From contig JAFLVP010000014.1 of the NCBI GenBank assembly GCA_022508265.1, positions 1-41,070 of the forward strand: a stretch of 41,070 nt of DNA. The letters are read 5' to 3'. The notes under the pieces were generated by a model, which saw only the letters and a program-made list of their open reading frames with translations, searched no databases and had not been told where the DNA came from. Every line of letters begins with the position of its first letter. Positions within the stretch are counted from its first letter, which is position 1. Of this stretch, positions 872-39,356 are shown in pieces. Source of the DNA: Clostridiales bacterium. GTDB lineage: Bacteria; Bacillota; Clostridia; Christensenellales; Borkfalkiaceae. The position numbers were made by a program, and so were the translations under genes.

Positions 872-920
872 TTCACAAAAATATGCCTCTATTCTGCGCG
901 GTTTATCGTAATTTTTTGCA
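872..920 (+). repeat. Degenerate 5'-hairpin module of the modular repeat (copy A)
   Basis: This copy begins with TTCACAAAAAT 5 nt after the stop codon of the 189-866 gene, carries the invariant loop CTATTCTGCG at 889-898, and ends in an ATTTTTT run. The two arms pair only imperfectly, so it looks like a decayed copy. It lies before the ATG at 940 of the deacetylase gene, which argues against any longer N-terminus for that protein. Confidence 0.6.
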
Positions 921-3135: not shown

Positions 3136-3789
3136 TTACTGCCTTGAGCAAGTCTTTCCCTGAGGATAAAGGGGCAGCTCGAAGAAGCCCGAGCATACCT
3201 CTTGCGAGTAATCCTGCGCGGGAGGAATTGCACAATAGCCGTAGCTGGGAACGAGCAGTTCAACGTCTATGGATATCTTCAGAATTGTGGTAAGACAAGC
3301 GTTTACGCTGAAAGTTCCGTTATCGTTAAACCTGCCCTCGGCACATACCGCGGATACTTCGCAGGTGGCTCTGTACGGCATAATCGAAGGTGCGGGTACA
3401 AACAAGATTACGTCTTGGTTGACGCTTATTTCGGACTGTGCCACTCCCTCTATTCCGTTCGCGTCGGTGTATAAAACCTCTACGGGAATATTGACCGTTG
3501 CCTGCACTCTTGCACAGCCCGGTCTGTCGGCAAGCCTTTCGATATTAAGATTTGTGATGTTGCCCGTAGAATTTATTGACCTTGCGCTTATGAAAGTAAG
3601 CGGGTATGTAGGGTTGGCGGGAAGCGGGTTGGTAAGTATAAGCGGATAGTTGTCTAACTGAATCTGCTTGATGCAGGCATCGAAAATCTTCTGTGCCTGA
3701 ATGCACACTTTCTCACACATACCGTTTAATGGATTGCCGCTTATAACGCCGGGGCATTTATCCGATTGAAAGTTGGAAAAAAATGACAT
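3136..3789 (-). CDS. Cysteine-containing clostridial protein, possibly spore-surface associated
   Basis: This 217-residue protein has no signal peptide. It opens with KCPGVISGNPLNGMCEKVCIQAQK, a Cys-bearing N-terminal pattern that I associate with conserved proteins of spore-forming Clostridia. The middle is beta-rich (VQATVNIPVEVLYTD, VILFVPAPSI), and further Cys residues occur at CEVSAVCAEG, VNACLTT, GYCAIPP, EVCSGF and KTCSRQ. A spore coat or exosporium role is plausible given the nearby LysM-like and SpoVB-like genes, but is an inference. The start has a strong GGAGG 6 nt upstream. The leader holds the direct repeat AGTACCAA twice and a sporulation-like -10 sequence. Confidence 0.65.
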   Translation of the reverse strand: MSFFSNFQSDKCPGVISGNPLNGMCEKVCIQAQKIFDACIKQIQLDNYPLILTNPLPANPTYPLTFISARSINSTGNITNLNIERLADRPGCARVQATVNIPVEVLYTDANGIEGVAQSEISVNQDVILFVPAPSIMPYRATCEVSAVCAEGRFNDNGTFSVNACLTTILKISIDVELLVPSYGYCAIPPAQDYSQEVCSGFFELPLYPQGKTCSRQ

Positions 3790-5726: not shown

Positions 5727-5769
5727 TTCACAAAAATTTAATTCTATTCTGCGCTTTTAATTTTTGTGA
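5727..5769 (+). repeat. Solo 5'-hairpin module of the modular repeat (copy B)
   Basis: TCACAAAAATTTAA pairs with TTAATTTTTGTGA around the central TTCTATTCTGCGC, with one bulge. It starts next to the stop codon of the spoVB-like gene and also overlaps the end of the convergent TSUP gene at 5757. Because the stem is AT-rich, it would be a poor intrinsic terminator. Confidence 0.72.
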
Positions 5770-18614: not shown

Positions 18615-18620
18615 ATTAAC

Positions 18621-18797
18621 TCACAAAAATAGCCTGCTATTCTGCGCAGGCTATTTTTCGTGATTTTGAGAAACTATGTTTCTCTGCCCGCAATCTTAAG
18701 GGGCAAACAAATACTAAATTGCGGGCATTCACTTCCAGTGAGCCGTAAGCATACGCAAATCGGGTGCGAAAGGAAAAAGCGTGGTTTTTCCTTTCGC
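18621..18797 (+). repeat. Modular multi-hairpin element, near-complete copy C
   Basis: The order is: hairpin 1 (18621-18663; AAAAATAGCCTG / CAGGCTATTTTT with loop CTATTCTGCG), hairpin 2 (GAGAAAC-TAT-GTTTCTC), hairpin 3 (TGCCCGCAAT ... ATTGCGGGCA, enclosing GGCAAACA), a short TCAC-TTCCA-GTGA hairpin, and a terminal hairpin at 18766-18797 (GCGAAAGGAAAAA / TTTTTCCTTTCGC). It starts 6 nt after the ATPase stop codon, in the same orientation. It aligns along its length with the minus-strand copy at 29938-30131. It contains no ORF. Confidence 0.85.
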
Positions 18798-18818
18798 CGT
18801 AAAGCGTTTTAAAATTTT

Positions 18819-18860
18819 TCACAAAAATAGCCTGCTATTCCGTGCAGGCTATTTTTTGAG
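18819..18860 (+). repeat. Solo 5'-hairpin module (copy D)
   Basis: This is nearly identical to hairpin 1 of copy C (AAAAATAGCCTG / CAGGCTATTTTT), but the loop is changed to CTATTCCGTG. It lies 21 bp beyond the end of copy C, giving the order 5' module, middle, 3' module, 5' module. It may be the start of a truncated tandem copy. Confidence 0.75.
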
Positions 18861-18870
18861 TTATAAACAA

Positions 18871-18898
18871 CCCGCGCCGAGCAAAAGCTCGGCGCGGG
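18871..18898 (-). terminator. Intrinsic terminator of gyrA
   Basis: A 12-bp GC stem, CCCGCGCCGAGC / GCTCGGCGCGGG, with a 4-nt loop, followed on the minus strand by TTGTTTAT. It lies 28 nt beyond the gyrA stop codon. Confidence 0.85.
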
Positions 18899-18926
18899 GT
18901 TTATTAAATACGATATTTTATTTATT

Positions 18927-21509
18927 TTACTCTTCCGAATCGGTTGAGATTTCGGTTGTTTCTACGACTTCATCGGGTGTTTCGGCTAAATCTTCGGCTG
19001 TTGCCTCCTCGGGGGCGGCGGTCTCAGCCTCGTCGTCGCGCTCGGTTACGGCTACGGTTGCCACGCACCCGTCTTTAAGGCGCATAAGGCGCACACCGCG
19101 CGTTGCTCTGCCGATTTTCGAGATTGCGTCGCAGTGCATTCTTATTATCGTTCCGCCGTCCGAGATAATCATTATATCCTCGTCCTCGCTGACCTGTTTC
19201 AAGTTTACAAGGCTACCCGTAATTTCGTTGAATGTGCCCGCCTTTATGCCCTTGCCTGCTCTGCCCGTCAAGCGGTAATCTTCGAGGCGTGAGCGCTTAC
19301 CGAAGCCGTTTGATGTCACGGTTAAGATATCCTTGCTTTCGTCCACCGTGAGCATATCTACGATTGCATCGTCTGCGCCGTCGAGCTTCATTGCCTTTAC
19401 GCCCGCAGTATCCCTGCCCATTGCGCGGACCTTGCTCTCGTCAAAGCGGATACACTTGCCCGAGCGGGAGGCTATCATAATTTCGCTTGAACCCGTAGTG
19501 AACTGAACGGAGATGAGCGAGTCGCCCTCGTTCAAGCGGATTGCGATTTTGCCGTTTCTGTTTATTCTTGCAAACTCCTCTACTTTGGTCTTTTTGATAA
19601 GTCCGTTCTTGGTGGCGAACGCGATATAGCCCTCGGTAGTGTCCTCAACGGGGATAATATTGGTAATCTTTTCCGTCTGTTCAATCTGAACAAGGTTGAC
19701 AATAGCTCTGCCTCGCGCAGTTCTTTGAGCTTCGGGAATTTCAAACGCCCTTATTCTGTACACCTTACCGTAGTCCGAGAATAAAAGGAGCGAGTCGTGC
19801 GAGGAGCAGACAAACATCTTTTCGACAAAGTCCTCCTCCTTGGGACGGTGAGCCGTAATTCCCATACCGCCTCTGTTCTGCGCTCTGTACTCGGCGACGG
19901 GCAATCTCTTTACATACCCCGAGTGGGTCATTGAAACGACAACCTGCTCTACGGGAATTAAATCTTCGTCCACGATGTCGCCCGAGAAATCTACGGCAAT
20001 TTCCGTCTTTCTCTCCGAGGGGTATTTGCGCTTGATTTCAAGCAGGTCGGTTTTAATAATTTCAAGAACTCTGCTCTCGTTTGCGAGAATATCCTTGTAA
20101 TCCTCTATAGCCCTTTCGAGGCTTGCGAGCTCCTCGTTGAGCTTATCCACTTCGAGGTGGGAAATTCTGTAGAGGCGCAGTTCTGCAACCGCCGTAGCCT
20201 GCCTTTCGTCCAAAAGGAATTTGGAAGTGAGCTGTTGAACGCAGTCGGTCTTGTCCTTTGCGTTTTTGCAAACTTCGACGACCTCGTTGATGCTCGCCTG
20301 CGCAATTACGAGTCCGCGCAGAATGTGTGCGCGCTCCTCCGTCTTGGTCAACTCGTACTTGGTGCGGCGGATAATAATGTCTTTCTGATGTTCGAGGTAA
20401 TAATATAAGCACTCTTTGAGGTTTAAAATTTTGGGCGTGCCGTCGACGAGCGCAAGCATTATTATACCGTCGGACACCTGTAAGTTGGTGTGCTTGTATA
20501 AAAGATTTAAAACGACCTGCGCGTTTGCGTCCTTTTTTACCTCGATGACGATGCGCATACCGTCTCTGTCGCTCTCTTCCCGTATGTCCGAAATGCCCTC
20601 TATCCTCTTATTTTTAACGAGGTCGGCAATGTTTTCTATAAGCTTTGCCTTGTTGACCTGATAGGGAATTTCGGTGACAATAATGCGGGTGCGGCTCTGG
20701 TTTCCGCTTTGATATTCTTCGATTTCGCAGCGGGAACGGATAATTATGCTGCCCTTACCCGTTCTGTAAGCCTTTTTTATACCGCTTCTGCCCATAATGA
20801 GCGCACCCGTGGGAAAGTCGGGGGCGGGAACGTATTCCATAAGACCGTCTATATCTATTTCGGGATTGTCTATAAGGGCTATAACACCGTCTATGCACTC
20901 TCCGAGGTTGTGAGGCGGTATGTTGGTCGCCATGCCCACCGCAATGCCGTCCGAGCCGTTTACAAGCATATTGGGGAAGCGCGAGGGAAGTACCGCGGGC
21001 TGCATACCCGTATCGTCGAAAGTGGGGTAGAAGTCAACGGTCTCCTTGTCGAGGTCCTTGAGCATTTCGGATGCAAGCTTTGAAAGCCTTGCCTCGGTAT
21101 ATCTCATTGCCGCGGCGGGGTCGCCGTCGACCGAGCCGAAATTGCCGTGTCCCTCTACGAGGGGGAAGTTTATCGAGAAATCCTGCGCAAGGCGGACGAG
21201 CGCGTCGTAAACCGAGCTGTCGCCGTGGGGATGATATTTACCCAAGCAGTCACCGACGATACGCGCGCATTTTCTGAACGCCTTGTCGGAATAGAGCCCG
21301 AGCTCGTGCATAGAGTATAAAATTCTGCGGTGAACGGGCTTTAAACCGTCGCGCACGTCGGGTATGGCGCGGGATACATTTACCGCCATTGCGTACGCTA
21401 TGAAAGATTTTTTAAGTTCCTCGTCTACCTCTCTGTCCAAAAACTTGGTCAGCGCAAGGGTGCGTTTAAATTCTTCTGTCAGTTCCGGACTCGTTTCTTT
21501 CTTTGCCAT
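18927..21509 (-). CDS. gyrA: DNA gyrase subunit A
   Basis: This 860-residue protein is the DNA-cleaving subunit. The active-site Tyr is residue 137 in [11 protein letters not shown]. The quinolone region reads [21 protein letters not shown], with Ser and Asp at the positions commonly mutated in resistance, so the residues look like the susceptible type. The GyrA box that allows DNA wrapping is present as QNRGGMG (about residues 545-551), so this is gyrase rather than ParC. The C-terminus carries an acidic tail ([14 protein letters not shown]) of the kind that tunes supercoiling. The start has AAGGAG 7 nt upstream, and gyrB ends 66 nt upstream, so the pair forms one operon. Confidence 0.97.
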
Positions 21510-21575
21510 ACTTACTCCTTTTTATTGCGGTGCAATCCACCGTTTCGCAGTTATAATTTACTGAAATGGTACTTT

Positions 21576-23501
21576 TTAAATATCCAACTCGGCTACGAGC
21601 TTTGCGTTTTCTTCGATGAACTGTCTGCGAAGCTCGGGCTGTTCTCCCATAAGCAGCGAGAAAAGTCTGTCCGCCTCCACTGCGTCCTCTACGTTAATGC
21701 GAACGAGGGTGCGCCTTGCGGGGTCCATAGTCGTCTCCCAGAGCTGTTCCTTGTTCATTTCGCCGAGACCCTTGTATCTCTGAAGCTCGAACTTGCCGTC
21801 GTAGCTGTTTTTAAACTCCTCTAACGCCTTGTCGTCGTAGAGATAGGTGTCCTCTATGCCCTTGCCCGAAACCTTGTACAAGGGGGGCTGTGCCGCATAT
21901 ACGTGCCCGTTTTCAACGAGGGGACGCATATAGCGGAAGAAGAAAGTCAATAAAAGTATTCTTATGTGCGAGCCGTCCACGTCGGCATCGGTCATAATTA
22001 TTATTCTGTCGTATCTTAACTTGCTTTCGTCGAAATTTTCCTGAATTCCGCAGCCGAAAGCCGTAATCATCGCCTTGATTTCCTCGTTTTCAAGCACGCG
22101 GTTAATCCTTACCTTTTCAACGTTTAAAATCTTACCTCTCAAAGGCAGAATTGCCTGAAAACGCCTGTCTCTGCCCTGCTTTGCCGTACCGCCTGCGCTG
22201 TCGCCCTCGACTATATAAATTTCGCACAGCTCGGGTCTTTTATCGGAGCAGTCGGCAAGCTTTCCGGGGAGCTTGGTGCTCTCGAACACGCCCTTGCGGT
22301 GTGTCTCTTCGCGCGCAAGCCTTGCCGCCTCCCTCGCCCTCTGCGCCGTAATACAGCGGAGAATAAGCTCTTTTGTTTCGGCGGGATGTTCTTCAAGGTA
22401 GGTGCCGAACTTGTCGGTTACAGCCTTCTGTACGAAGCCTCTGACATAGGTAGAACAGAGCTTTGCCTTGGTCTGGCTCTCGTACTGAGCGTCGGCAATT
22501 TTGACGGATACGACCGCCGTAATGCCCTCACGGACGTCGTCGCCCGAAAGCTTTTCGTTCTCCTTTAAGATGTTGAGGCGCTTGCCCGCGTCGTTTATGA
22601 CCTTCGTTAGAGCCGCTTTAAAGCCGTCGAGGTGGGTTCCGCCGTCGGGCTGACGGATATTGTTTGAGAAGGGGAAAATCTGCTCGGAATAGCCGTCGTT
22701 GTACTGAATTGCAACTTCGAGGAATTTGTCGTCCCCCTCGTTCTCTTCAAAGTACACGGGCTTTTCAAACAGCACTTCCTTGCCCCTGTTGATATCTTCG
22801 ATAAAGTGAACTACGCCGCCCTCGTAGCAGAAGCTGTCGTGCCTCTCCTTTTCGCCGCGATAGTCCGAAAGCGTGAGCGTCAAGCCCTTGTTGAGATAGG
22901 AAAGCTCCCTTAAAAGGGTCTTTAATGTGTCGTAGTTGAACTCGGTGGTCTCGAGTATGGTTGCGTCGGGGTGGAAGGTTACGGTGGTACCCGTCTTGTC
23001 CGTGTCGCCCACTATTTTAAGGGGTTCTTCGGGAATACCGCAGTGATAAACCTGACGGTAGATGTGACCGTTCTGGCAAACCTCGGCAGTTAAAGTGTCC
23101 GAAAGCGCGTTTACGCAGGAGACGCCCACGCCGTGCAGTCCCGACGAAATTTTATAGCCGCCCGCCTTGTTGCCGCCGCCGAATTTACCGCCTGCGTTGA
23201 GGTTGGTTAAGGCAAGCTCTACGCCGCTTATTCCCGCTTCCTTATTTATGCCCGTGGGAATACCTCTGCCGTTGTCCTGAACGGAACACGAGCCGTCGGC
23301 AGTGATTATTACGTTAATCGTGTCGCAGTAGCCTGCCAAAGCCTCGTCTATTGAGTTGTCTATAACTTCCCTCACAAGGCAGTGCAGACCCTTCTCGTCC
23401 GTGGGTCCGATATACATACCGGGATGTTCGCGAACGGGCTCTAAACCCTTTAATGCGCGTAAGGAATTGGCGTCGTAATTGTTCTCTATTTTTTCAGGCA
23501 T
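21576..23501 (-). CDS. gyrB: DNA gyrase subunit B
   Basis: The 641-residue protein is the ATPase subunit of gyrase. The GHKL ATP site shows EVIDNSIDEALAG, DNGRGIP and GLHGVGVSCVNALS. The TOPRIM domain shows IVEGDSAGG and DADVDGSHI, which hold the metal-binding acidic residues. The length is normal for Gram-positive GyrB, with no insertion. The start has GAGAGG about 7 nt upstream, after a leader of about 30 nt from a strong promoter. It precedes gyrA; recF and dnaA are not next to it, unlike in Bacillus. Confidence 0.97.
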   Translation of the reverse strand: MPEKIENNYDANSLRALKGLEPVREHPGMYIGPTDEKGLHCLVREVIDNSIDEALAGYCDTINVIITADGSCSVQDNGRGIPTGINKEAGISGVELALTNLNAGGKFGGGNKAGGYKISSGLHGVGVSCVNALSDTLTAEVCQNGHIYRQVYHCGIPEEPLKIVGDTDKTGTTVTFHPDATILETTEFNYDTLKTLLRELSYLNKGLTLTLSDYRGEKERHDSFCYEGGVVHFIEDINRGKEVLFEKPVYFEENEGDDKFLEVAIQYNDGYSEQIFPFSNNIRQPDGGTHLDGFKAALTKVINDAGKRLNILKENEKLSGDDVREGITAVVSVKIADAQYESQTKAKLCSTYVRGFVQKAVTDKFGTYLEEHPAETKELILRCITAQRAREAARLAREETHRKGVFESTKLPGKLADCSDKRPELCEIYIVEGDSAGGTAKQGRDRRFQAILPLRGKILNVEKVRINRVLENEEIKAMITAFGCGIQENFDESKLRYDRIIIMTDADVDGSHIRILLLTFFFRYMRPLVENGHVYAAQPPLYKVSGKGIEDTYLYDDKALEEFKNSYDGKFELQRYKGLGEMNKEQLWETTMDPARRTLVRINVEDAVEADRLFSLLMGEQPELRRQFIEENAKLVAELDI

Positions 23502-23538
23502 TTATCTACCTCTCCGAAAAAAATTTAGCTTCGAATTT

Positions 23539-23567
23539 ATTATACCATATTATATAATCGATTGCAA
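23539..23567 (-). promoter_or_regulatory. SigA-type promoter of gyrB-gyrA
   Basis: The minus strand reads TTGCAA (23567-23562), 17 bp with a TGG extension, TATAAT (23544-23539). It is the best promoter match in the window. Confidence 0.8.
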
Positions 23568-23629
23568 ACGATAGAGCAAAAAATTTCAAAAATAAGAGTA
23601 AAAATTTGGCAAAAACACATACTTTTTTT

Positions 23630-23785
23630 ATGAAAAATTTTAAGTGCGGGCATAGCGCGGATTCGGATATTTTAAACGACTTTTACGAGTGCGGAAGCTG
23701 CGGAAATCACATCTGTAAAACGCAGGTTGAAAGATGCGGAACGGTCTGTCCAAACTGCTTTGGTAGACTTTACAGAGTCAATTAA
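23630..23785 (+). CDS. Small Cys-rich (zinc-ribbon-like) protein of 51 residues
   Basis: The reading frame gives 51 residues with seven Cys: KCGHS (C6), YECGSCGNHIC (C21, C24, C29) and RCGTVCPNC (C36, C40, C43), plus His at 8 and 27. The CxxC pairs suggest a small zinc ribbon. There is no signal peptide. It has no Shine-Dalgarno; CATACTT, close to the SigG -10 pattern, lies about 5 nt before the ATG. It stops just before the 23791-23819 terminator, which supports a real gene. The function is unknown. Confidence 0.6.
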   Translation: MKNFKCGHSADSDILNDFYECGSCGNHICKTQVERCGTVCPNCFGRLYRVN

Positions 23786-23790
23786 AAACG

Positions 23791-23819
23791 AAACCGCCGA
23801 CGGTTACCGTCGGCGGTTT
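23791..23819. terminator. Bidirectional terminator
   Basis: A 13-bp stem, AAACCGCCGACGG / CCGTCGGCGGTTT, with a TTA loop, between the convergent 51-residue protein gene and the M50 protease gene. Confidence 0.88.
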
Positions 23820-24534
23820 ACATATACTCTTGTTTTAATTGTTCAAATCTCTCTTTATACTTTTGAGCCTCTTCTTCGTTGCCCTTGGCTTTCATATACC
23901 CGTAGCGGAGCTCGGTTAAGGCGATAAAGCTTTGGTCGTCCTCGCGTATCTGCGGCAGGTCGAATAAGAGCTTTTCGTCAACCTCCTGTATGGGTTTTCC
24001 GTTTAAAACCTGCGCCTGCACCGTTAAGACGGCGATTAAAACCTTGCCCTCGTCCTTATCTTTTACGATTTCATCTACTACAAGTCCGTCTGCTTTGCCC
24101 GAGGGAAAATGCACGGGGAACGCGTTTAATAATATAAGATATATATTTGCAGGAATGAGAAAGGACAACCAAACGGGGGCGATATTAAAGCTTATCAGAG
24201 TCCCTAAAATAAGTCCGATAACCACATTGATAGCACATCCACCGTACACTGTTGCAATGACGCGTGCTTTGAGTTTGTCCTCTTTGTTTGGCATTAGCGC
24301 ACAGCTTGACGAGCCTAATAAACTGAAATGAGGTTTAGTTTTAATTCCGCACATCGCGCCGAACAGCATATGCCCGAGTTCGTGCAAAAGCGACGAAAGC
24401 GGAATTGCGGCTATCATAGCGACCCAAACGGGTATTGCCCACAGTCCCAGTTCAAACCAGCAGGTTGCGCCGTACACACCCGCAAAAAGAGCGAAAGCCA
24501 ACGCAGAAAAAATGATACAGGTTGAACTTTTCAT
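23818..24534 (-). CDS. M50-family membrane metalloprotease (site-2-protease-like)
   Basis: The 238-residue protein begins with a hydrophobic segment, then HELGH (zinc-binding HExxH) in the second helix. A later NAFPVHFPSGKADG carries the NxxPxxxxDG-type motif with the third zinc ligand. About four membrane segments precede a soluble, helical C-terminus (about residues 165-238). M50 enzymes cut membrane-embedded substrates, for example anti-sigma factors or, in SpoIVFB, pro-SigK; this one lacks the CBS domain of SpoIVFB, so its substrate is unknown. The start ATG 24534 overlaps the ppx stop as ATGA, with AGAGGG upstream. Confidence 0.85.
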   Translation of the reverse strand: MKSSTCIIFSALAFALFAGVYGATCWFELGLWAIPVWVAMIAAIPLSSLLHELGHMLFGAMCGIKTKPHFSLLGSSSCALMPNKEDKLKARVIATVYGGCAINVVIGLILGTLISFNIAPVWLSFLIPANIYLILLNAFPVHFPSGKADGLVVDEIVKDKDEGKVLIAVLTVQAQVLNGKPIQEVDEKLLFDLPQIREDDQSFIALTELRYGYMKAKGNEEEAQKYKERFEQLKQEYM

Positions 24535-25394
24535 AGCTTGCCCTCTTTGAAGATAATAAAGCCCTCTAAATTGTCGCTTTCGGATACGGTAACTACGGAT
24601 ACATTGAGCGCACGCATAATCGTTGATAAAAGCAGCGTTCCGCCGCCCATAATTTCGGATGACTGCGCACAGATTGTGGTTGACTTTATATGCTCGACGT
24701 CCTCGGTCAAAAGCCAAGTTGCAAGCTTGTCCACCTCGGCTAAACTCAAGACCGTTCCGTCTGTAATTTCAGGTGCGTACTCCGTTAGTTTGTGTTTTAC
24801 GGAGGCAAGACGGGTCGCCGTTCCGCCGATTGCGTACATTTTGAAATTGCTTGCGTCGATTTTTCCGTATTCTGCAACCTTTTCGTCAATTATACTTTGA
24901 AGAGCGGCTCTGTCCCGTTTTGCGCTGTCGAAAAGGCGCACAGCGCCTATATTTACGCTCTTTGCGTACACCGTTTTGCCGCTTTTACGCAGGGTAATTT
25001 CCGTGCTTGCGCCGCCTATGTCTATAATTCCGCCGTCGGATGAGCCGAGCGCGCCGAGTATTCCGCACTCCGCCTCTTCTTCCCCGCTCAAAACGCAGAT
25101 ATCCAAACCACACAGCTCTTTAACGCGCTTTAAAAAGTCGCACCCGTTAGTTGCCGTGCGCACCGCGGCGGTTGCAAAGGCGTAAATTTTTCCCGCACCG
25201 TCCTCTAACGCTTGCTTGTAAAAGTCGTTTACGGCAAGCGCAGTCCGCTCCAAGGCTTCGGGGGATAAAACGGGGGTTTTGTTTAGCCCTTCGCCAAGCC
25301 TTGTTGTGCAAAGACGCTTATATAAAGTTTTTCCGCCTTCAAAGGTTGCAAGGCGGACTGAATTCGAACCGATGTCGATTGCTGAAATTTTCAT
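24531..25394 (-). CDS. Ppx/GppA-family phosphatase
   Basis: The 287-residue protein starts MKISAIDIGSNSVRLA, the sugar-kinase/Hsp70-like phosphate-1 motif. It continues with FATAAVRTATNG, LSGEEEAECGI and IDIGGASTEI, all hallmarks of exopolyphosphatase/guanosine pentaphosphatase enzymes. It is the short form (about 300 residues, without the C-terminal HD domain). It probably degrades polyphosphate or pppGpp; which is not decidable. The reading frame extends to 25427, but that part overlaps divIC, so ATG 25394 just after the divIC stop is preferred; no Shine-Dalgarno is visible there, so translation may be coupled. Confidence 0.88.
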   Translation of the reverse strand: MKISAIDIGSNSVRLATFEGGKTLYKRLCTTRLGEGLNKTPVLSPEALERTALAVNDFYKQALEDGAGKIYAFATAAVRTATNGCDFLKRVKELCGLDICVLSGEEEAECGILGALGSSDGGIIDIGGASTEITLRKSGKTVYAKSVNIGAVRLFDSAKRDRAALQSIIDEKVAEYGKIDASNFKMYAIGGTATRLASVKHKLTEYAPEITDGTVLSLAEVDKLATWLLTEDVEHIKSTTICAQSSEIMGGGTLLLSTIMRALNVSVVTVSESDNLEGFIIFKEGKL

Positions 25395-25396
25395 AA

Positions 25397-25657
25397 TCAG
25401 TTTTTGGAAGGATGATAGCCGTACCATGCCAGCAAATCCATGCGGTACTGCCAGGACTTGAGATAGTCAAGCTCGTTTTCCGAGTCTTTTATCAGCTCCT
25501 CGTACGAACGGATTTGCTCCTGAAGGTTCTTTTTTTCATTGCTCATGTTTACGATCGTCGCCAGCTGGCATATTATCACTACTGCGAAGATTACTATCAG
25601 CAGCACGGCGGCGACGGTTGATGCCGCTACGATGCGGTTTTTCTTTGCTTCGTCCAC
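25397..25657 (-). CDS. divIC: Septum formation initiator, DivIC/FtsL-type
   Basis: This 86-residue bitopic protein has a short basic N-terminus, one membrane helix (about residues 10-33) and a coiled coil (MSNEKKNLQEQIRSYEELIKDSENELDYLKSWQY), ending in YGYHPSKN. This is the DivIC/FtsB layout; such proteins help assemble the division septum. The start is GTG 25657, with GAAGGT 8 nt upstream. It overlaps the 3' end of yabQ by 122 nt in another frame, which is unusually long. Its position after yabP-yabQ is standard in spore-formers. Confidence 0.85.
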   Translation of the reverse strand: MDEAKKNRIVAASTVAAVLLIVIFAVVIICQLATIVNMSNEKKNLQEQIRSYEELIKDSENELDYLKSWQYRMDLLAWYGYHPSKN

Positions 25658-26006
25658 GTTTTTTTACCTTCTTGGGTCTGTTTGTTATCTTATTATATAC
25701 TTTTCTTGCGAAAAACGCAACAATTTGATGAAAACTTTTTAAATATAGGAGCGCGCCGATGGCACAGCCTATGAGCATATACAGCCTCAATGAGGAAAAG
25801 CCGAACATCGTAGACAGGAAAATAAACCCCGCCGCAAAGACGAGGCAATATATAATGTCGGCGGCAAAAATAAAAATTTTGTCCTTTACCGTGTAGCTTT
25901 GAGTGTCTACTCCGCACAGAACGCAGCGCGCCACGAACAGCACGTCGTAGACAAGCCCGCTGACAATTCCGCAAAAAATACAGGTTATAAATATGAAAAT
26001 TTGCAT
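25536..26006 (-). CDS. yabQ: Spore cortex biosynthesis protein YabQ
   Basis: This 156-residue protein has about four membrane segments (IFIFITCIFCGIVSGLVYDVLFVAR and later ones), then a basic tail, NRPKKVKKRGRSKEKPHRSG. The pattern and the yabP-yabQ-divIC order fit YabQ, a membrane protein needed for cortex formation in Bacillus. The ATG at 26006 overlaps the TAA of yabP (TAATG), so translation is coupled. The last 40 or so residues are encoded in the overlap with divIC and look disordered. Confidence 0.88.
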   Translation of the reverse strand: MQIFIFITCIFCGIVSGLVYDVLFVARCVLCGVDTQSYTVKDKIFIFAADIIYCLVFAAGFIFLSTMFGFSSLRLYMLIGCAIGALLYLKSFHQIVAFFARKVYNKITNRPKKVKKRGRSKEKPHRSGINRRRRAADSNLRSSDNMPAGDDRKHEQ

Positions 26007-26257
26007 TATCTGAACAGTTTTTGTTTAAGCGAGCTTCCCTTTTTTACGTAGCGCACCGAGACTATTTCGCCCGTTGCCGAAAATGCCCCGCTCGTCTTTG
26101 AAAAATTTATTATCTTCATACCGCTGCCGCCGACTACTATTCTGCCGCCTGAATAGCTTAAAACTATCTGCCTGTCGGAAAAGCTGTCAACGCTCGAAAT
26201 TTGAGTTGCACTCACTCTTTTACACTGTTCTATCGATAGGTTGTGTCCTTCTTCCAT
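26006..26257 (-). CDS. yabP: Sporulation protein YabP
   Basis: The 83-residue protein contains ISSVDSFSDRQIVLSYSGGRIVVGGSGMKIINFSKTSG, interrupted by no gaps relative to the YabP/YqfC family, and GEIVSVRYVKK. YabP proteins are small, beta-rich sporulation proteins of unknown biochemical role. The start is set at ATG 26257, with GGGGAG and GGGAAG upstream. The frame is open up to 26317, but that part lacks family similarity. It is the first gene of the yabP-yabQ-divIC cluster. Confidence 0.85.
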   Translation of the reverse strand: MEEGHNLSIEQCKRVSATQISSVDSFSDRQIVLSYSGGRIVVGGSGMKIINFSKTSGAFSATGEIVSVRYVKKGSSLKQKLFR

Positions 26258-26332
26258 CTTCCCGCTCCCCAATAATTTTGTATATTTTATGCTCGGAAAG
26301 TTCGGATAATTCGACATATAACTAAAATTAAA

Positions 26333-26356
26333 CGCGGCGCAAATTTTTGCGCCGCG
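26333..26356 (-). terminator. Intrinsic terminator of typA
   Basis: An 11-bp stem, CGCGGCGCAAA / TTTGCGCCGCG, around TT. On the minus strand it is followed by TTTAATTTT. It separates typA from yabP. Confidence 0.8.
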
Positions 26357-26371
26357 CCAGAATATATAATT

Positions 26372-28204
26372 TTACATTATGCCTTTTTTAAGTTTTGCGT
26401 TGGCTTTGGCGCGGAGTTCGCTGTCCAGAATACGCTTTCTTATGCGGATATTTTTGGGAGTTACCTCCAACAATTCGTCGTCCGCGATAAATTCAAGGCA
26501 CTCTTCGAGGCTCATTTTCTTGGGGGTTATGAGCCTTAACGCGTCGTCCGAAGAGCTTGAACGGGTATTAGTTAAATGCTTTGTCTTGCACACGTTTACG
26601 TTGATATCGTCGCTTTTGGGGCTTTCGCCTATTACCATGCCCTCGTACACGGGAGTACCCGCGCCGATAAACAGCGTTCCCCTGCCCTGCGCGTTGAAAA
26701 GTCCGTAGGTTACCGCCTCGCCCGTTTCAAAGGCTATGAGCGAACCCGTGTTTCGGCGCGAAAGCTCGCCCTTGTAGGGTTGGTATTCGAAGAACACGCT
26801 CGAGAAGATACCCTCGCCCTTGGTGGACGTCAAAAATTCCGACTTGTACCCGAAGAGTCCGCGGGCGGGAATTATAAATTCAAGTCTCGTACGGCTGCCT
26901 ATTGCACTCATATGCAGAAGCTCGCCTTTGCGGTTTCCCATACTCTGGAAAACTGCGCCCGTACTTTCGTCGGGAACGTCGACTATAAGCCTTTCCATAG
27001 GCTCGTACTTTACGCCGTCAATCTCCCTGTACATTACGCGGGGCGTGGAAACTTGAAATTCGTAGCCCTCCCTTCGCATATTTTCAATGAGAATGGAGAG
27101 GTGCATCTCGCCTCTGCCGCACACGCGGTAGCTGTCCGCCGAGCCCGTTTCCTCGACCCTTAAAGATACGTCCTTTAAAAGCTCTTTAAAGAGTCTGTCG
27201 TGCAGGTGGCGCGTCGTGACCCACTTGCCGTCCTTGCCCGCAAAGGGCGAATCGTTTACAGAGAATGTCATTTCGACCGTGGGTTCGGTAATCTTGACGA
27301 ATTTGTGGGGCTCTACGCAGTCGGTCTGACACACGGTGTCGCCTATGTTGATTTTTTCAAGACCCGAAAAGCAGACTATATCCCCCGCCTTTGCACTTTC
27401 GCAGGCAACGCGTTGCAAACCGTCTATCTGATACAGGTTTGCAATTTTGCCGGGAGCGTGAAGCTGTATATTGTTGTAGTTGCACACCGTGACGGCCTGC
27501 CCCTGCCTTACGACTCCGCGCTCTATTCTGCCTATGCCTATGCGCCCGACGTAGTCGTTGTAGTCTATGGACGAAACGAGGAGCTGTGTTGCACCCTCGG
27601 TGTCCGCCTCCATGGGCTGAATATGCGTAAGTATAGTTTCGAAAAGAGGGGTCAAGTCCTTGCCCTTTTCGTTTAAATCGAGGGTTGCCGTACCGTCTCT
27701 GCCCGAACACCATACGACGGGGCTCATAAGCTGGTCGTCGGAGGCGTCAAGTTCTAAAAGTAGTTCCAAAATCTCGTCCTGAACCTCGGCAAGGCGGGCG
27801 TCGGGACGGTCTATTTTGTTTACGACGATAATCAGTCTGTGCCCCATTTCAAGCGCCTTTTGTACGACAAAGCGGGTCTGAGGCATGGGTCCTTCGGCGG
27901 CGTCAACGAGCACGAGTACGCCGTTTACCATCATCATAACGCGCTCAACCTCGCCCGAAAAGTCGGCGTGTCCGGGCGTGTCAACCACGTTTATTTTTAC
28001 GCCCTTGTAGCTTATCGAAGTGTTCTTTGCAAGAATGGTTATGCCGCGTTCGCGCTCCAAATCGTTGGAGTCCATAACGCGTTCCTCCACCGCCTGATTT
28101 TCGCGGAAGGTGTGACTCTGCTTTAACATTGCGTCGACAAGCGTCGTCTTGCCGTGGTCTACGTGCGCGATTATCGCTACGTTTCTTAAATCTTCTCTTA
28201 ACAA
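26372..28204 (-). CDS. typA: GTP-binding protein TypA/BipA
   Basis: This 610-residue translational GTPase has G1 AHVDHGKTT (about residues 13-21), G2 region RGITI, G3 DTPGHADF and G4 NKIDRPDA, followed by EF-G-like domains and the TypA-specific C-terminal domain, which contains [13 protein letters not shown] and [16 protein letters not shown]. TypA acts on the ribosome in assembly and stress adaptation. The start codon is TTG (28204), supported by AGAGG 7 nt upstream. It lies downstream of gpsA and ends at its own terminator. Confidence 0.95.
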
Positions 28205-28243
28205 AATTCTGCCTCTTTAAAATAGTCTAATCTTTATAGTTTT

Positions 28244-29233
28244 TTAAAATTCCGATTTGGTTTCTCTCTCAAACAGTTTTAATATGATATCCATACAATG
28301 CTTGGGTCCGTCGCCGTTTTCGAATACGCGCGAGAGGAAGCACGCCTCGTACACCGCGTTGGTTATGGGGAGCTCTATACCGAGTTTGTCGGCAAGCTCT
28401 TTTATGGCTTTTGCAGTCATAACGCCCTCGGCAAGTTTGTCGAACTTGGTGCCGTGCGCCATCATTTCGCCGTAACGGCGGTTGTGGGAATACTCCGAAA
28501 AGAGTGTGGTTTCGTAGTCGCCGAGGTGCGCAAGCCCGTACGCCGAATTGAATTCGCCGCCCATTGCAGTTATGAGCTTTCCGACCTCGTACGCACCGCG
28601 CGCCATTAAAGGCCCCTTTAAACTTACATATCCGCTACCGTCGAGTACGCCTGCGGCAATGCCCATTACGTTTTTTGCCGCCGCGCCTATTTCAGAGCCT
28701 ATAATATCGTTGCCGTAGTAAAAACGGATTAAGTTGCTCTTGAAATTGTCGGCAATGTACCTCTTTAAATTTTCGTCATAGCTGTCTATGACCATGCAGT
28801 TGGGTATGCCCTTTGTGAAAGCCTGAATATGCCCCGGTCCTACCCATACGGCTATCTTGTTTTTATCTATTCCGCTCTCTATTAAAACTTCGGAGAGGCG
28901 CTTGCCCGTGCTCTCCTCTATGCCTTTCATACAGAGTATGAAAATTTTGTCCTTGACGTTGTACGCCGTGACCTTTTTCATAAAACCGCGCAAGCCCTGC
29001 GAGGAGATTGAAATTATTATAATTTCGCTCGAATTTACGGCGTATTCCAAGTCGCAAGTCAGCGTTATTGACTTGTCAAGCTCGACGTACTCGTTTCTGC
29101 CCGTGTTTTTTAAGACCTCGTACGAATAATCCCCCTCGGGTCCCCAGCTTATTACTCTGTTTTTAAGTACGGTCGCCTGATACCATGCTATAAACGAGCC
29201 CCAACGCCCGCAACCTAATACGGAAATGTTCAT
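28244..29233 (-). CDS. gpsA: Glycerol-3-phosphate dehydrogenase (NAD(P)+)
   Basis: The 329-residue protein makes sn-glycerol 3-phosphate for phospholipids. The Rossmann motif is GCGRWGSFIAW. The catalytic Lys region reads EIGAAAKNVMGIAAGVLDG, and the conserved C-terminal loop reads GLAHLGDYETTLFSEYSHNRRYG; most relatives have GLAGLGDLxxTCxSxxSRN, so this copy is a divergent version of the motif with the same frame of Asp, Ser and Asn-Arg. Length is normal. The start has AGAGGT 7 nt upstream. recR precedes it and typA follows. Confidence 0.9.
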   Translation of the reverse strand: MNISVLGCGRWGSFIAWYQATVLKNRVISWGPEGDYSYEVLKNTGRNEYVELDKSITLTCDLEYAVNSSEIIIISISSQGLRGFMKKVTAYNVKDKIFILCMKGIEESTGKRLSEVLIESGIDKNKIAVWVGPGHIQAFTKGIPNCMVIDSYDENLKRYIADNFKSNLIRFYYGNDIIGSEIGAAAKNVMGIAAGVLDGSGYVSLKGPLMARGAYEVGKLITAMGGEFNSAYGLAHLGDYETTLFSEYSHNRRYGEMMAHGTKFDKLAEGVMTAKAIKELADKLGIELPITNAVYEACFLSRVFENGDGPKHCMDIILKLFERETKSEF

Positions 29234-29286
29234 ATTTTTACCTCTTAATTTTTAAATCTAATGCCCGTCTAAAAAGCATAGAAGCA

Positions 29287-29317
29287 AGCAGTGCAACACA
29301 GTTATGCGCCGCTTATA
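29287..29317 (-). repeat. Short intergenic repeat X2 within a hairpin at the recR stop codon
   Basis: Positions 29295-29317 match 30636-30658 at about 20 of 23 bases, around a shared TGCGCCG core. On the minus strand the recR end AAAAAGCATA pairs with TATGCTTTTT about 36 nt later, so the hairpin encloses the repeat and straddles the stop codon. Confidence 0.55.
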
Positions 29318-29903
29318 TGCTTTTTCTCTCTGTTAAGGCACGCGAAAGTGTGACTTCGTCTGTGTATTCAAGTTCCCCACCGACGGGAATACCGTGCGCA
29401 AGGCGGGTTACGTTCACGCCGAGGGGCTTTATAAGCTTTGCTATATACATAGCTGTTGCCTCGCCCTCTACGTCGGGATTGGTTGCCATTATTACTTCCG
29501 TTACCTCGCTGTTTATGCGGGAAAGAAGCTCTTTAATGCGGATATCGTTGGGGCCTACTCCGTCCATAGGGCTTATTACGCCGTGCAGAACGTGATAGAC
29601 GCCCTTGTATTCGTGCAGTTTTTCCATCGCGATTACGTCTTTGGGCTCTTTGACAACGCAAATCTGCGCGGGACGGCGGGTTTTGCAAATTTCGCACTCC
29701 TCGTTTTCGGAGAAATTTCCGCACGTTTTGCAGTATTTTACACGGCTCTTGCAGTACAGCACGCTGTCGGCAAATTCCTTTGCCTCCGCTTCCGTCATCT
29801 GAATAATTTTATAGGCGTAACGCTGCGCCGTCTTTTTGCCCACGCCGGGGAGCTTGGAAAACTGATTGATAAGTCTTCCGATAGGTTCGATAAATACTTC
29901 CAT
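29313..29903 (-). CDS. recR: Recombination protein RecR
   Basis: This 196-residue protein acts with RecF/RecO in recombinational repair. It shows the helix-hairpin-helix [19 protein letters not shown], a Cys4 zinc finger ([12 protein letters not shown]...CEICKTR), and a TOPRIM domain starting [13 protein letters not shown] with [15 protein letters not shown]. Length is normal. The ATG is preceded by a weak GAGAT. It follows dnaX and ybaB, the common order, but 230 nt separate it from ybaB, filled by a modular repeat element. Confidence 0.96.
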
Positions 29904-29937
29904 ATCTCAAATCAATAAAAATTTTATAAAATTATTT

Positions 29938-30131
29938 GCGCAAGGAAAACCGCGCTTTTCCGCAAGCGCACTCAATTTGTGCTAACTTGCACTCACACCG
30001 AAGTCTTGCGTAGGTGCAGAGTGAATGCCCGAAATTATATATCTGTTTGCCATTATGATTACGGGCAGAGAGACAGCGTCTCTCAAATCACGGAAAAATT
30101 ACTACGCAGAATAGTAGTAATTTTTCGTGAA
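29938..30131 (-). repeat. Modular multi-hairpin element, near-complete copy E
   Basis: Read on the minus strand it has the same order as copy C: hairpin 1 (AAAAATTACTA / TAGTAATTTTT with loop CTATTCTGCG), hairpin 2 (GAGAGAC-GCT-GTCTCTC), hairpin 3 (TGCCCGTAAT ... ATTTCGGGCA enclosing GGCAAACA), a longer CACTC ... GAGTG hairpin, and a terminal hairpin at 29938-29969. Stems 1 and 2 differ from copy C by paired changes that keep base pairing. It starts 4 nt after the ybaB stop codon, in the same orientation. Confidence 0.85.
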
Positions 30132-39294: not shown

Positions 39295-39326
39295 AATACT
39301 TTCCTTTATATAATAAATTACATCGG

Positions 39327-39356
39327 AAGGAAAAACCACGCTTTTTCCTTTCGCAC
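39327..39356 (-). repeat. Solo 3'-hairpin module in the mcsA leader
   Basis: These 30 bases are the exact reverse complement of 18764-18793, the terminal hairpin of copy C (GGAAAAAGCGTGGTTTTTCC core). It lies in the predicted 5' leader of mcsA-mcsB-clpC, between the -10 box and the TTG start codon. Confidence 0.85.

Follow-up and report, generated by a model that had tools for sequence, protein, structure and literature searches.

A dispersed family of five-hairpin intergenic repeats in Borkfalkiaceae, probably maintained as folded DNA

The window analysed here, a contig of 41,070 nucleotides from a Clostridiales bacterium of the family Borkfalkiaceae (GenBank JAFLVP010000014.1), carries two complete copies, termed A and B, of a multi-hairpin repeat of ∼195 bp. 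They belong to an apparently undescribed family whose members are dispersed in up to tens of copies per genome, occupy different sites in different genomes, form tandem arrays, have mosaic bodies and covary in their base pairs. We consider it probable that these are short, non-autonomous intergenic repeats that behave like BOX elements or like repetitive extragenic palindromes and bacterial interspersed mosaic elements (REP/BIME), and that their stems are kept as folded DNA rather than as transcribed RNA.

Both copies lie where a preliminary description of this DNA had put them, with the hairpin order it gave, and extend in full from 18620 to 18814 (plus strand) and from 30131 to 29926 (minus strand); its count of two was an understatement. 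The covariance-model search it proposed recovered many further copies in the source genome and in relatives. Twenty-two source-genome copies were aligned with MAFFT (alignment A1) and used to build a covariance model (CM), R1, which identified 52 places at E ≤ 1 in the source genome (1.55 Mb; assembly 94 % complete) after scoring 150 of 1034 first-look candidates; 30 of these places fall below 1e-18. A blastn search for copy A returned 53 matches at the same E-value limit, with 40 of its 55 candidates scored. The close relative HAN107 (G057, which by its coordinates is also assembly G234) holds 59 places at E ≤ 0.001. Copies are clustered in both genomes: source contig C23 (103.5 kb) carries 16 of the 52 places and 10 of the 30 strong ones, and HAN107 contig C13 (90.6 kb) carries 11 of the 59.

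A CM search of 41 genomes at E ≤ 0.01 gave matches in 23, namely the source and 22 of 24 congeners, and in none of the 16 from other families. Among 248 genomes of the order, searched at E ≤ 1e-6, 14 had matches: seven of eight in the genus itself and seven of nine in a sister genus, where they were weak (1e-7 to 1e-10). At that threshold no match was found in the one genome of a third genus of the family or in the 230 genomes outside the family, 214 of which were placed outside it by their list order. Genus-wide, 80 of 93 genomes had CM matches at E ≤ 1e-6 and 13 had none, and the number of copies per genome ranged from none found to at least 63; such counts are lower bounds, the 41-genome search having scored up to 63 places in each genome and the genus-wide search up to 27. 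Stretches matching the element's pattern (44) include Candidatus Borkfalkia faecavium, Candidatus Borkfalkia stercoripullorum, isolate UBA11940 and Clostridia MAGs (metagenome-assembled genomes). Carriage as phage or plasmid cargo was rejected: one exact pattern matched nothing among viral contigs, and blastn searches of plasmids and phages with copy A were likewise negative.

The preliminary description had not recognised a described family, and none was found in Rfam or in the literature on the host clade. At gathering thresholds an Rfam scan of the whole window returned only a tRNA at 1–54, and Rfam 15 run on 14 loci (E ≤ 5) gave no gathering-score match lying on the element; a known Rfam RNA was therefore set aside. 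Some loci bearing a copy also carry a T-box leader (L074:188–404, minus strand, below gathering score), an L10 leader (L083:2705–2845, minus strand) or a tmRNA (L071:15–310, minus strand). Among the matches listed, no description of such a repeat family was found for papers on Borkfalkia, Borkfalkiaceae and coproplasma.

The anatomy of the unit was established from the 22 copies of A1, from alignment A3, in which 97 matches found at 80 loci in other genomes were fitted to the CM, and by direct reading. It runs (G)TTCAC-H1-H2-H3-H4-CAAATTGGGT-H5-CGTTAATTATTT(TAAA). The 5′ end is fixed at (G)TTCAC, and the flank before it shows a G at −1 in 61 % of copies and nothing else. H1 has a highly variable stem with one bulged base in its 3′ arm; H3 has a large loop holding GGGC-x-x-AC and is followed by a short linker and H4; and the AT-rich tail fades ∼4 bases past ATTT. 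No terminal inverted repeats were found, the 5′ end TTCAC and the 3′ end ATTTTAAA not being mutually inverted. Every complete copy that was read has one each of H1–H5, variation taking the form of whole-unit tandem arrays, of which L323 is the clearest, and of extra insertions at H4 or H2. The features in the window are as follows.

18620–18814, plus strand: copy A, whole element, H1–H5 and tail (CM R1 match at 18620–18809, E 1.9e-51).
18620–18663, plus strand: copy A H1, with a variable stem, the loop CTATTCTGCG and a single bulged C in its 3′ arm.
18668–18684, plus strand: copy A H2, GAGAAAC TAT GTTTCTC.
18685–18727, plus strand: copy A H3, large loop containing GGGCAAACA.
18744–18755, plus strand: copy A H4, CGTA AGCA TACG, followed by CAAATCGG.
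18766–18797, plus strand: copy A H5, loop GCGTGG.
18798–18814, plus strand: copy A AT-rich tail (from the 3′ boundary profile over 183 copies).
18818–18858, plus strand: H1′, a second H1-type hairpin with a variable stem identical to that of copy A H1.
29926–30131, minus strand: copy B, whole element, in the ybaB-recR gap and oriented with the operon (CM R1 match, E 1.0e-35).
30088–30131, minus strand: copy B H1.
30068–30084, minus strand: copy B H2, GAGAGAC GCT GTCTCTC.
30026–30067, minus strand: copy B H3, loop containing GGCAAACA.
29979–29992, minus strand: copy B H4, by alignment (a single-sequence fold pairs the region differently).
29938–29971, minus strand: copy B H5, loop GCGCGG, by alignment (a single-sequence fold pairs the 5′ part differently).
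872–915, plus strand: remnant, H1 alone (CM match); HAN107 has a complete 250-bp element there, then the same remnant.
5727–5769, plus strand: remnant, H1 alone (CM match); HAN107 has a shortened element of 138 bp there.
39318–39356, minus strand: remnant, H5 alone (blastn with copy A); HAN107 has a complete element there.

Copy A starts 5 nt past the stop codon of a P-type ATPase gene and is flanked on its other side by gyrA, in convergent orientation; copy B starts 4 nt past the ybaB stop, and its stretch before H4 (29993–30025) is longer than in other copies. The H1 stems AGCCTG/CAGGCT and TACTA/TAGTA, and the H2 arms, had been quoted correctly in the preliminary description, which had overlooked H1′ and the three remnants. 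Its invariant H1 loop proved constant only locally, CTATTCTGCG being present in 18 of 28 distinct source-genome copies, 30 of 46 in HAN107 and 26 of 111 from the remaining loci examined, and the supposedly constant GGCAAACA of H3 is replaced by GGCACACA, GGCGCACA and similar sequences in other species. CAAATTG or CAAATCG is present in 158 of 185 copies, and the 17 sister-genus copies keep CAAATTG in 16 cases and an H5 loop of GCGTGG or GCGCGG in 15. A further H1-type hairpin stands behind the tail in 25 of 79 source and HAN107 copies, in 24 of these at 4–11 bases past the model end; 11 of the 25 resemble the H1 of their own element more closely than, or as closely as, any other. The one beside copy A is present in HAN107 too, where H1 itself has a different stem.

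The five hairpins are conserved and their covariation is very strong. RNAalifold on A1 gave 48 pairs, 32 with both sides changed. In A3, which leans toward the model because it was fitted to it, all 48 modelled pairs show double changes, 95.2 % of cells are paired against 70.5 % when shuffled, and the covariation score is 0.620 compared with 0.172 ± 0.005 for shuffled and at most 0.111 for slid alignments; thus, the check on many copies that the preliminary description had called for came out positive. Copies A and B also fold far better than their dinucleotide shuffles (z −6.2 and −5.2, respectively), with none of 200 shuffles equalling either.

The preliminary description had left open whether the folded form is RNA or single-stranded DNA, and the composition of the pairs favours DNA for H1–H4. 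With the outer helix of H5 (H5-outer) counted separately, the helices of A3 contain 3718 Watson–Crick, 36 G.U, 26 A.C and 64 other pairs, G.U making up 1.0 % of pairs, whilst in 28 HAN107 tRNAs the corresponding counts are 551, 47, 0 and 0, with G.U at 7.9 % (Fisher's test, 2.7e-8 for G.U:A.C and 2e-20 for G.U:Watson–Crick). A Watson–Crick-only stem search, which gives G.U no preference over A.C, was run on 185 of 190 copies (those containing N, under 150 bp or identical were left out) and gave 39 G.U and 76 A.C in H1–H3. Because G.U is rare and differs little from A.C in frequency, DNA is favoured for H1–H4, whose stems look like DNA palindromes; H5-outer fits uncleanly.

In order to compare site occupancy between the source and HAN107 we used 52 of the 59 HAN107 places, 49 of which lay within fetched sequence; the source side consisted of the window and the surroundings of 30 copies, and 30 of the 49 HAN107 places could not be placed there. 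Thirteen of the 15 doubly occupied sites were aligned, the remaining two being L055 and L060. Six of the 13 have closely similar bodies, six have partly or wholly different ones, mostly beside similar flanks, and at one (L032) the two elements lie in opposite orientation. At eight further sites the element is complete in one genome, whilst its counterpart is a remnant or missing (window 872, window 39318, source C28 near 1960, L044, L046, L048, L052 and L056). Mosaic bodies were also observed: at L051 H1–H2 are common to source and counterpart, the switch falls within H3 and the source H3 is broken; at L055 H5 and the tail are common and the middle differs; and L033, L043 and L057 are further cases. 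Copy B with its 60-base flanks is identical between source and HAN107 at 324 of 326 positions, which is above most other shared sites.

The ybaB-recR junction, where the source carries copy B, was read at 30 loci among 39 genomes in which recR was found. Twenty-four of these have a gap of 0–77 nt with no CM match inside (the gap of L155 was assessed by reading), L161, L162 and, weakly, L159 hold copies in the opposite orientation, and L157 and L158 have long spacers with no match; in L160 and L154 a partial or weak match lies elsewhere in the locus. Mobility is supported by these differences in occupancy and orientation, its enzyme and intermediate are putative, and transposition itself is an inference. 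Target duplication was not detected over 186 copies, in which k-mers shared between flanks were near the shuffled expectation, and a classic miniature inverted-repeat transposable element (MITE) with target duplication was accordingly set aside; the largest of 24 deviations was at k = 7 including the first T (5 against 1.6 expected, with 4 of 500 shuffles as high).

Gene positions around copies were determined with a simple open reading frame (ORF) picker. The 5′ end lies 1–8 nt past the stop of a sense upstream gene in 20 of the 37 source and congener copies that have one, and 0–8 nt past it in 15 of 23 such copies in HAN107, whereas the 3′ end is equally near the stop of a facing gene in none of 21 (Fisher's test, 2.4e-6, for a comparison picked post hoc). 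Flanking genes of 61 source and congener copies were sense-sense in 26 cases, anti-anti in 18, sense-anti in nine, anti-sense in four and incomplete in four; for 40 complete HAN107 copies the first four classes numbered 14, 12, 9 and 5, and five copies overlap a called ORF. In co-directional gaps orientation is thus near even (26:18, p 0.29; 14:12, p 0.85). For five of the 23 HAN107 sense copies the upstream called ORF ends 13–16 nt inside the element, and H1 may supply its stop codon. Terminator-like scores were obtained for H1 of copy A and, as overlapping hits, in the H5 region of copy B, whose H1 was not called terminator-like.

A protein that might mobilise the family was sought in 25 genomes. 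Reverse transcriptase (RT) gave no match in the source genome, G002, G006 or G016 and was present in 11 of the 25; an RT-borne element, such as a group II intron or retron, was set aside on the strength of those four genomes. Y1_Tnp (PF01797) was found in six of the 25 and in neither the source nor the copy-rich G002, G006, G014, G016 and G024, which led us to set aside a RAYT-borne element as well. Y2_Tnp (PF04986) was found in none of the 25, the 14 control genomes being silent as well. PF00589 matched all 25 genomes and all 14 controls, a count that is uninformative because XerC/D is nearly universal. An autonomous copy, in which a gene would separate H1 from H3, was not found in 1.17 Mb of HAN107, for which the list of isolated pieces was read, and two inserts of 296–298 bp seen there proved to be another repeat.

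Taken together, we propose that a host or resident recombinase or transposase, with no sign of RT or Y1, would spread the copies by acting on a folded single strand or cruciform, the 5′ H1 end serving as the fixed end. New insertions would survive mainly at gene junctions, above all just past stop codons, and copies would later swap modules by recombination. Selection acting on the hairpin DNA while it spreads may preserve perfect arms, assisted by template switching and conversion. A host function is unnecessary under this proposal, although an H1 that follows a stop codon can resemble a terminator hairpin.

A number of observations weigh against folded mobile DNA. The searches yielded no mobilising protein, a gene that seems absent may have been missed because the assemblies are incomplete, and RT is present in the copy-rich G014 and G024. 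At none of the eight differing sites is the junction crisp, the sites compared include no clean empty one within a single species, and some of the differences would be explained by old copies having been lost. There is no lagging-strand bias by GC skew (18 vs 21 of 39 scored copies), a count on which lagging-strand targeting was set aside; a bias would have spoken for a single-stranded target on the lagging strand. The 5′-end preference behind stop codons could signal a host role at 3′ ends. The pair counts are not independent events, because the copies in one alignment are related, and template switching could give Watson–Crick-only change without selection. Finally, H5-outer in A3 has 69 G.U against 27 A.C, with 103 other mismatches and partly owing to one G.T column, whole H5 has 105 G.U against 51 A.C in the Watson–Crick-only search, and H5-outer taken alone would fit RNA.

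Some of these observations favour a structured RNA as the selected form, either a small RNA gene or an RNA-mobile element that is retro-transposed or protein-bound. The strong covariation in five hairpins, the conserved unpaired segments, the excess of G.U over A.C in H5 and the good folding of copies A and B as RNA all agree with it. We nevertheless regard it as unlikely, given that G.U is eight-fold below its level in the relative's tRNAs and scarcely above A.C outside H5-outer, that orientation is near even, that RT had no match in the source, G002, G006 and G016, that no Rfam family lies on the elements and that site occupancy differs. Still less credit is due to a host-useful 3′-end element, in which H1 would be a terminator or mRNA-end hairpin and the rest would protect or process operon transcripts, with copies recruited behind stops. 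The placement of 5′ ends close past sense stops (20 of 37 and 15 of 23) suits it, as do the terminator-like H1 of copy A and H5-region hits of copy B; sense and antisense copies are, however, about equally frequent in co-directional gaps (26:18 and 14:12), and 13 of 93 congeners have no match at E ≤ 1e-6. Moreover, termination would be harmful within dnaX-ybaB-recR, the operon that contains copy B, whose H1 was not called terminator-like, and the ybaB-recR junction holds antisense copies in two congeners.

The preliminary description had also held that paired substitutions with constant loops imply selection on structure. The compensatory change is genuine, but the implication is not automatic, because exchange between copies is visible and template switching at palindromes can fix both arms and yield double Watson–Crick changes in one event (PMC8794818). 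Selection on structure is for this reason likely rather than proven. Carried to its limit, the argument would have pairing kept by mutation and recombination alone, with template switching and inter-copy conversion renewing the arms and no structure selected; mosaics, different stems at orthologous sites (e.g. L043) and the best or tied best match of trailing hairpins to the neighbouring H1 in 11 of 25 cases fit this. It is an improbable account of the whole, however, as different species share the order and spacing of the hairpins and their unpaired segments (CAAATTG or CAAATCG in 158 of 185) and the sister genus retains CAAATTG in 16 of 17 copies and the H5 loop in 15 of 17, which mutation alone would not achieve.

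The nearest known systems are BOX, REP-type, MITE and single-strand DNA elements. The BOX-like modular build that the preliminary description had noted was borne out in build and behaviour: like BOX (boxA-boxB-boxC) of Streptococcus pneumoniae and S. suis, the element is short, intergenic, palindrome-rich and present in many copies that gain and lose modules, and is a dispersed repeat of separable hairpin modules. It differs in host group and in having one each of five hairpins where boxB varies in number; no sequence relation is claimed, the likeness resting on build and behaviour, and near-pure Watson–Crick covariation is documented here for the element. Further points in common, reported for part of the pneumococcal repeats, are ends that do not resemble an insertion sequence (IS) and sites of insertion that are difficult to define (PMC3049150). 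REP/BIME and REPIN-RAYT systems share with the element palindromic extragenic repeats in many copies. REPs also occur near stop codons. They are described as palindromes of 20–40 bp with GTAG/CGTC tags (PMC3733652), whilst our element is ∼195 bp with five hairpins, Y1_Tnp gave no match in the source genome or the five copy-rich genomes named above, and no GTAG tag was found in its flank profile (5′ flank only). MITEs of DDE type (the Correia element, RUP) are likewise short, non-autonomous, intergenic and base-paired, in contrast to which the element's ends are not inverted repeats and show no target duplication above chance. Integron attC hairpins are recognised as single-stranded DNA. The same is reported for hairpins of IS200/IS605 (PMC6006769), from which the element differs in the lack of a Y1 transposase match in its source genome and of a lagging-strand bias. 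The element works like BOX or REP yet was found to lack defining features of REP-RAYT, DDE MITE and RT-borne elements.

Other repeats were observed within or next to copies. A second repeat of ∼297 bp, with the ends ACGGGTATTCAACCC...GGGTTGAATACCCGT, lies inside the H1 3′ arm of several copies (L055/L010, at source C28 about 3250–3545; HAN107 C12:22141–22438, C6:11999–12294, C12 about 1–115 and C3 from 33103), and one HAN107 copy, at C1 about 730260–730540, lies elsewhere; H1 may be its preferred target. In the sister genus the H1 loop of L328 and L329 is likewise interrupted by another sequence, and a hairpin fragment behind the L328 element begins in the same way. A recurring insertion of ∼58 bp (GCGAGCGAAGCGA...GTGCAAA) is found at H4 at different sites (source C41:3717–3965 and C23:8531–8778; HAN107 C1:164489, C1:326243 and C12:22430), and at L051 HAN107 has it and the source does not. 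In L158, L169 and L173 other dispersed-looking sequences (...CCTCCTGTCATTCTGAG..., ...GGAGCTGTCAACGCAGTTGACTGAGGGG...) adjoin half H1 hairpins or occupy gene junctions.

These findings describe a repeat family that is common among uncultured gut bacteria of one clade, where it sits at gene junctions with an occupancy that varies between relatives. The repeat resembles structured RNA enough to mislead covariation screens, and the G.U content of its pairs, set against that of tRNAs, offers an easy way to distinguish hairpins of DNA from structures of RNA. It is conceivable, if doubtful, that the family represents a class of mobile DNA that spreads in the form of a folded single strand bearing several hairpins, its 5′ hairpin end being fixed, without terminal inverted repeats or target duplication and through an enzyme other than RT and Y1, and whose hairpins evolve by whole-arm Watson–Crick replacement; were this true, counts of G.U against A.C would generally separate DNA-borne from RNA-borne structures in repeat families. 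Because members of the genus differ so widely in copy number, with no copy found in some and at least 63 in another, the mobiliser is searchable by comparison of gene content.

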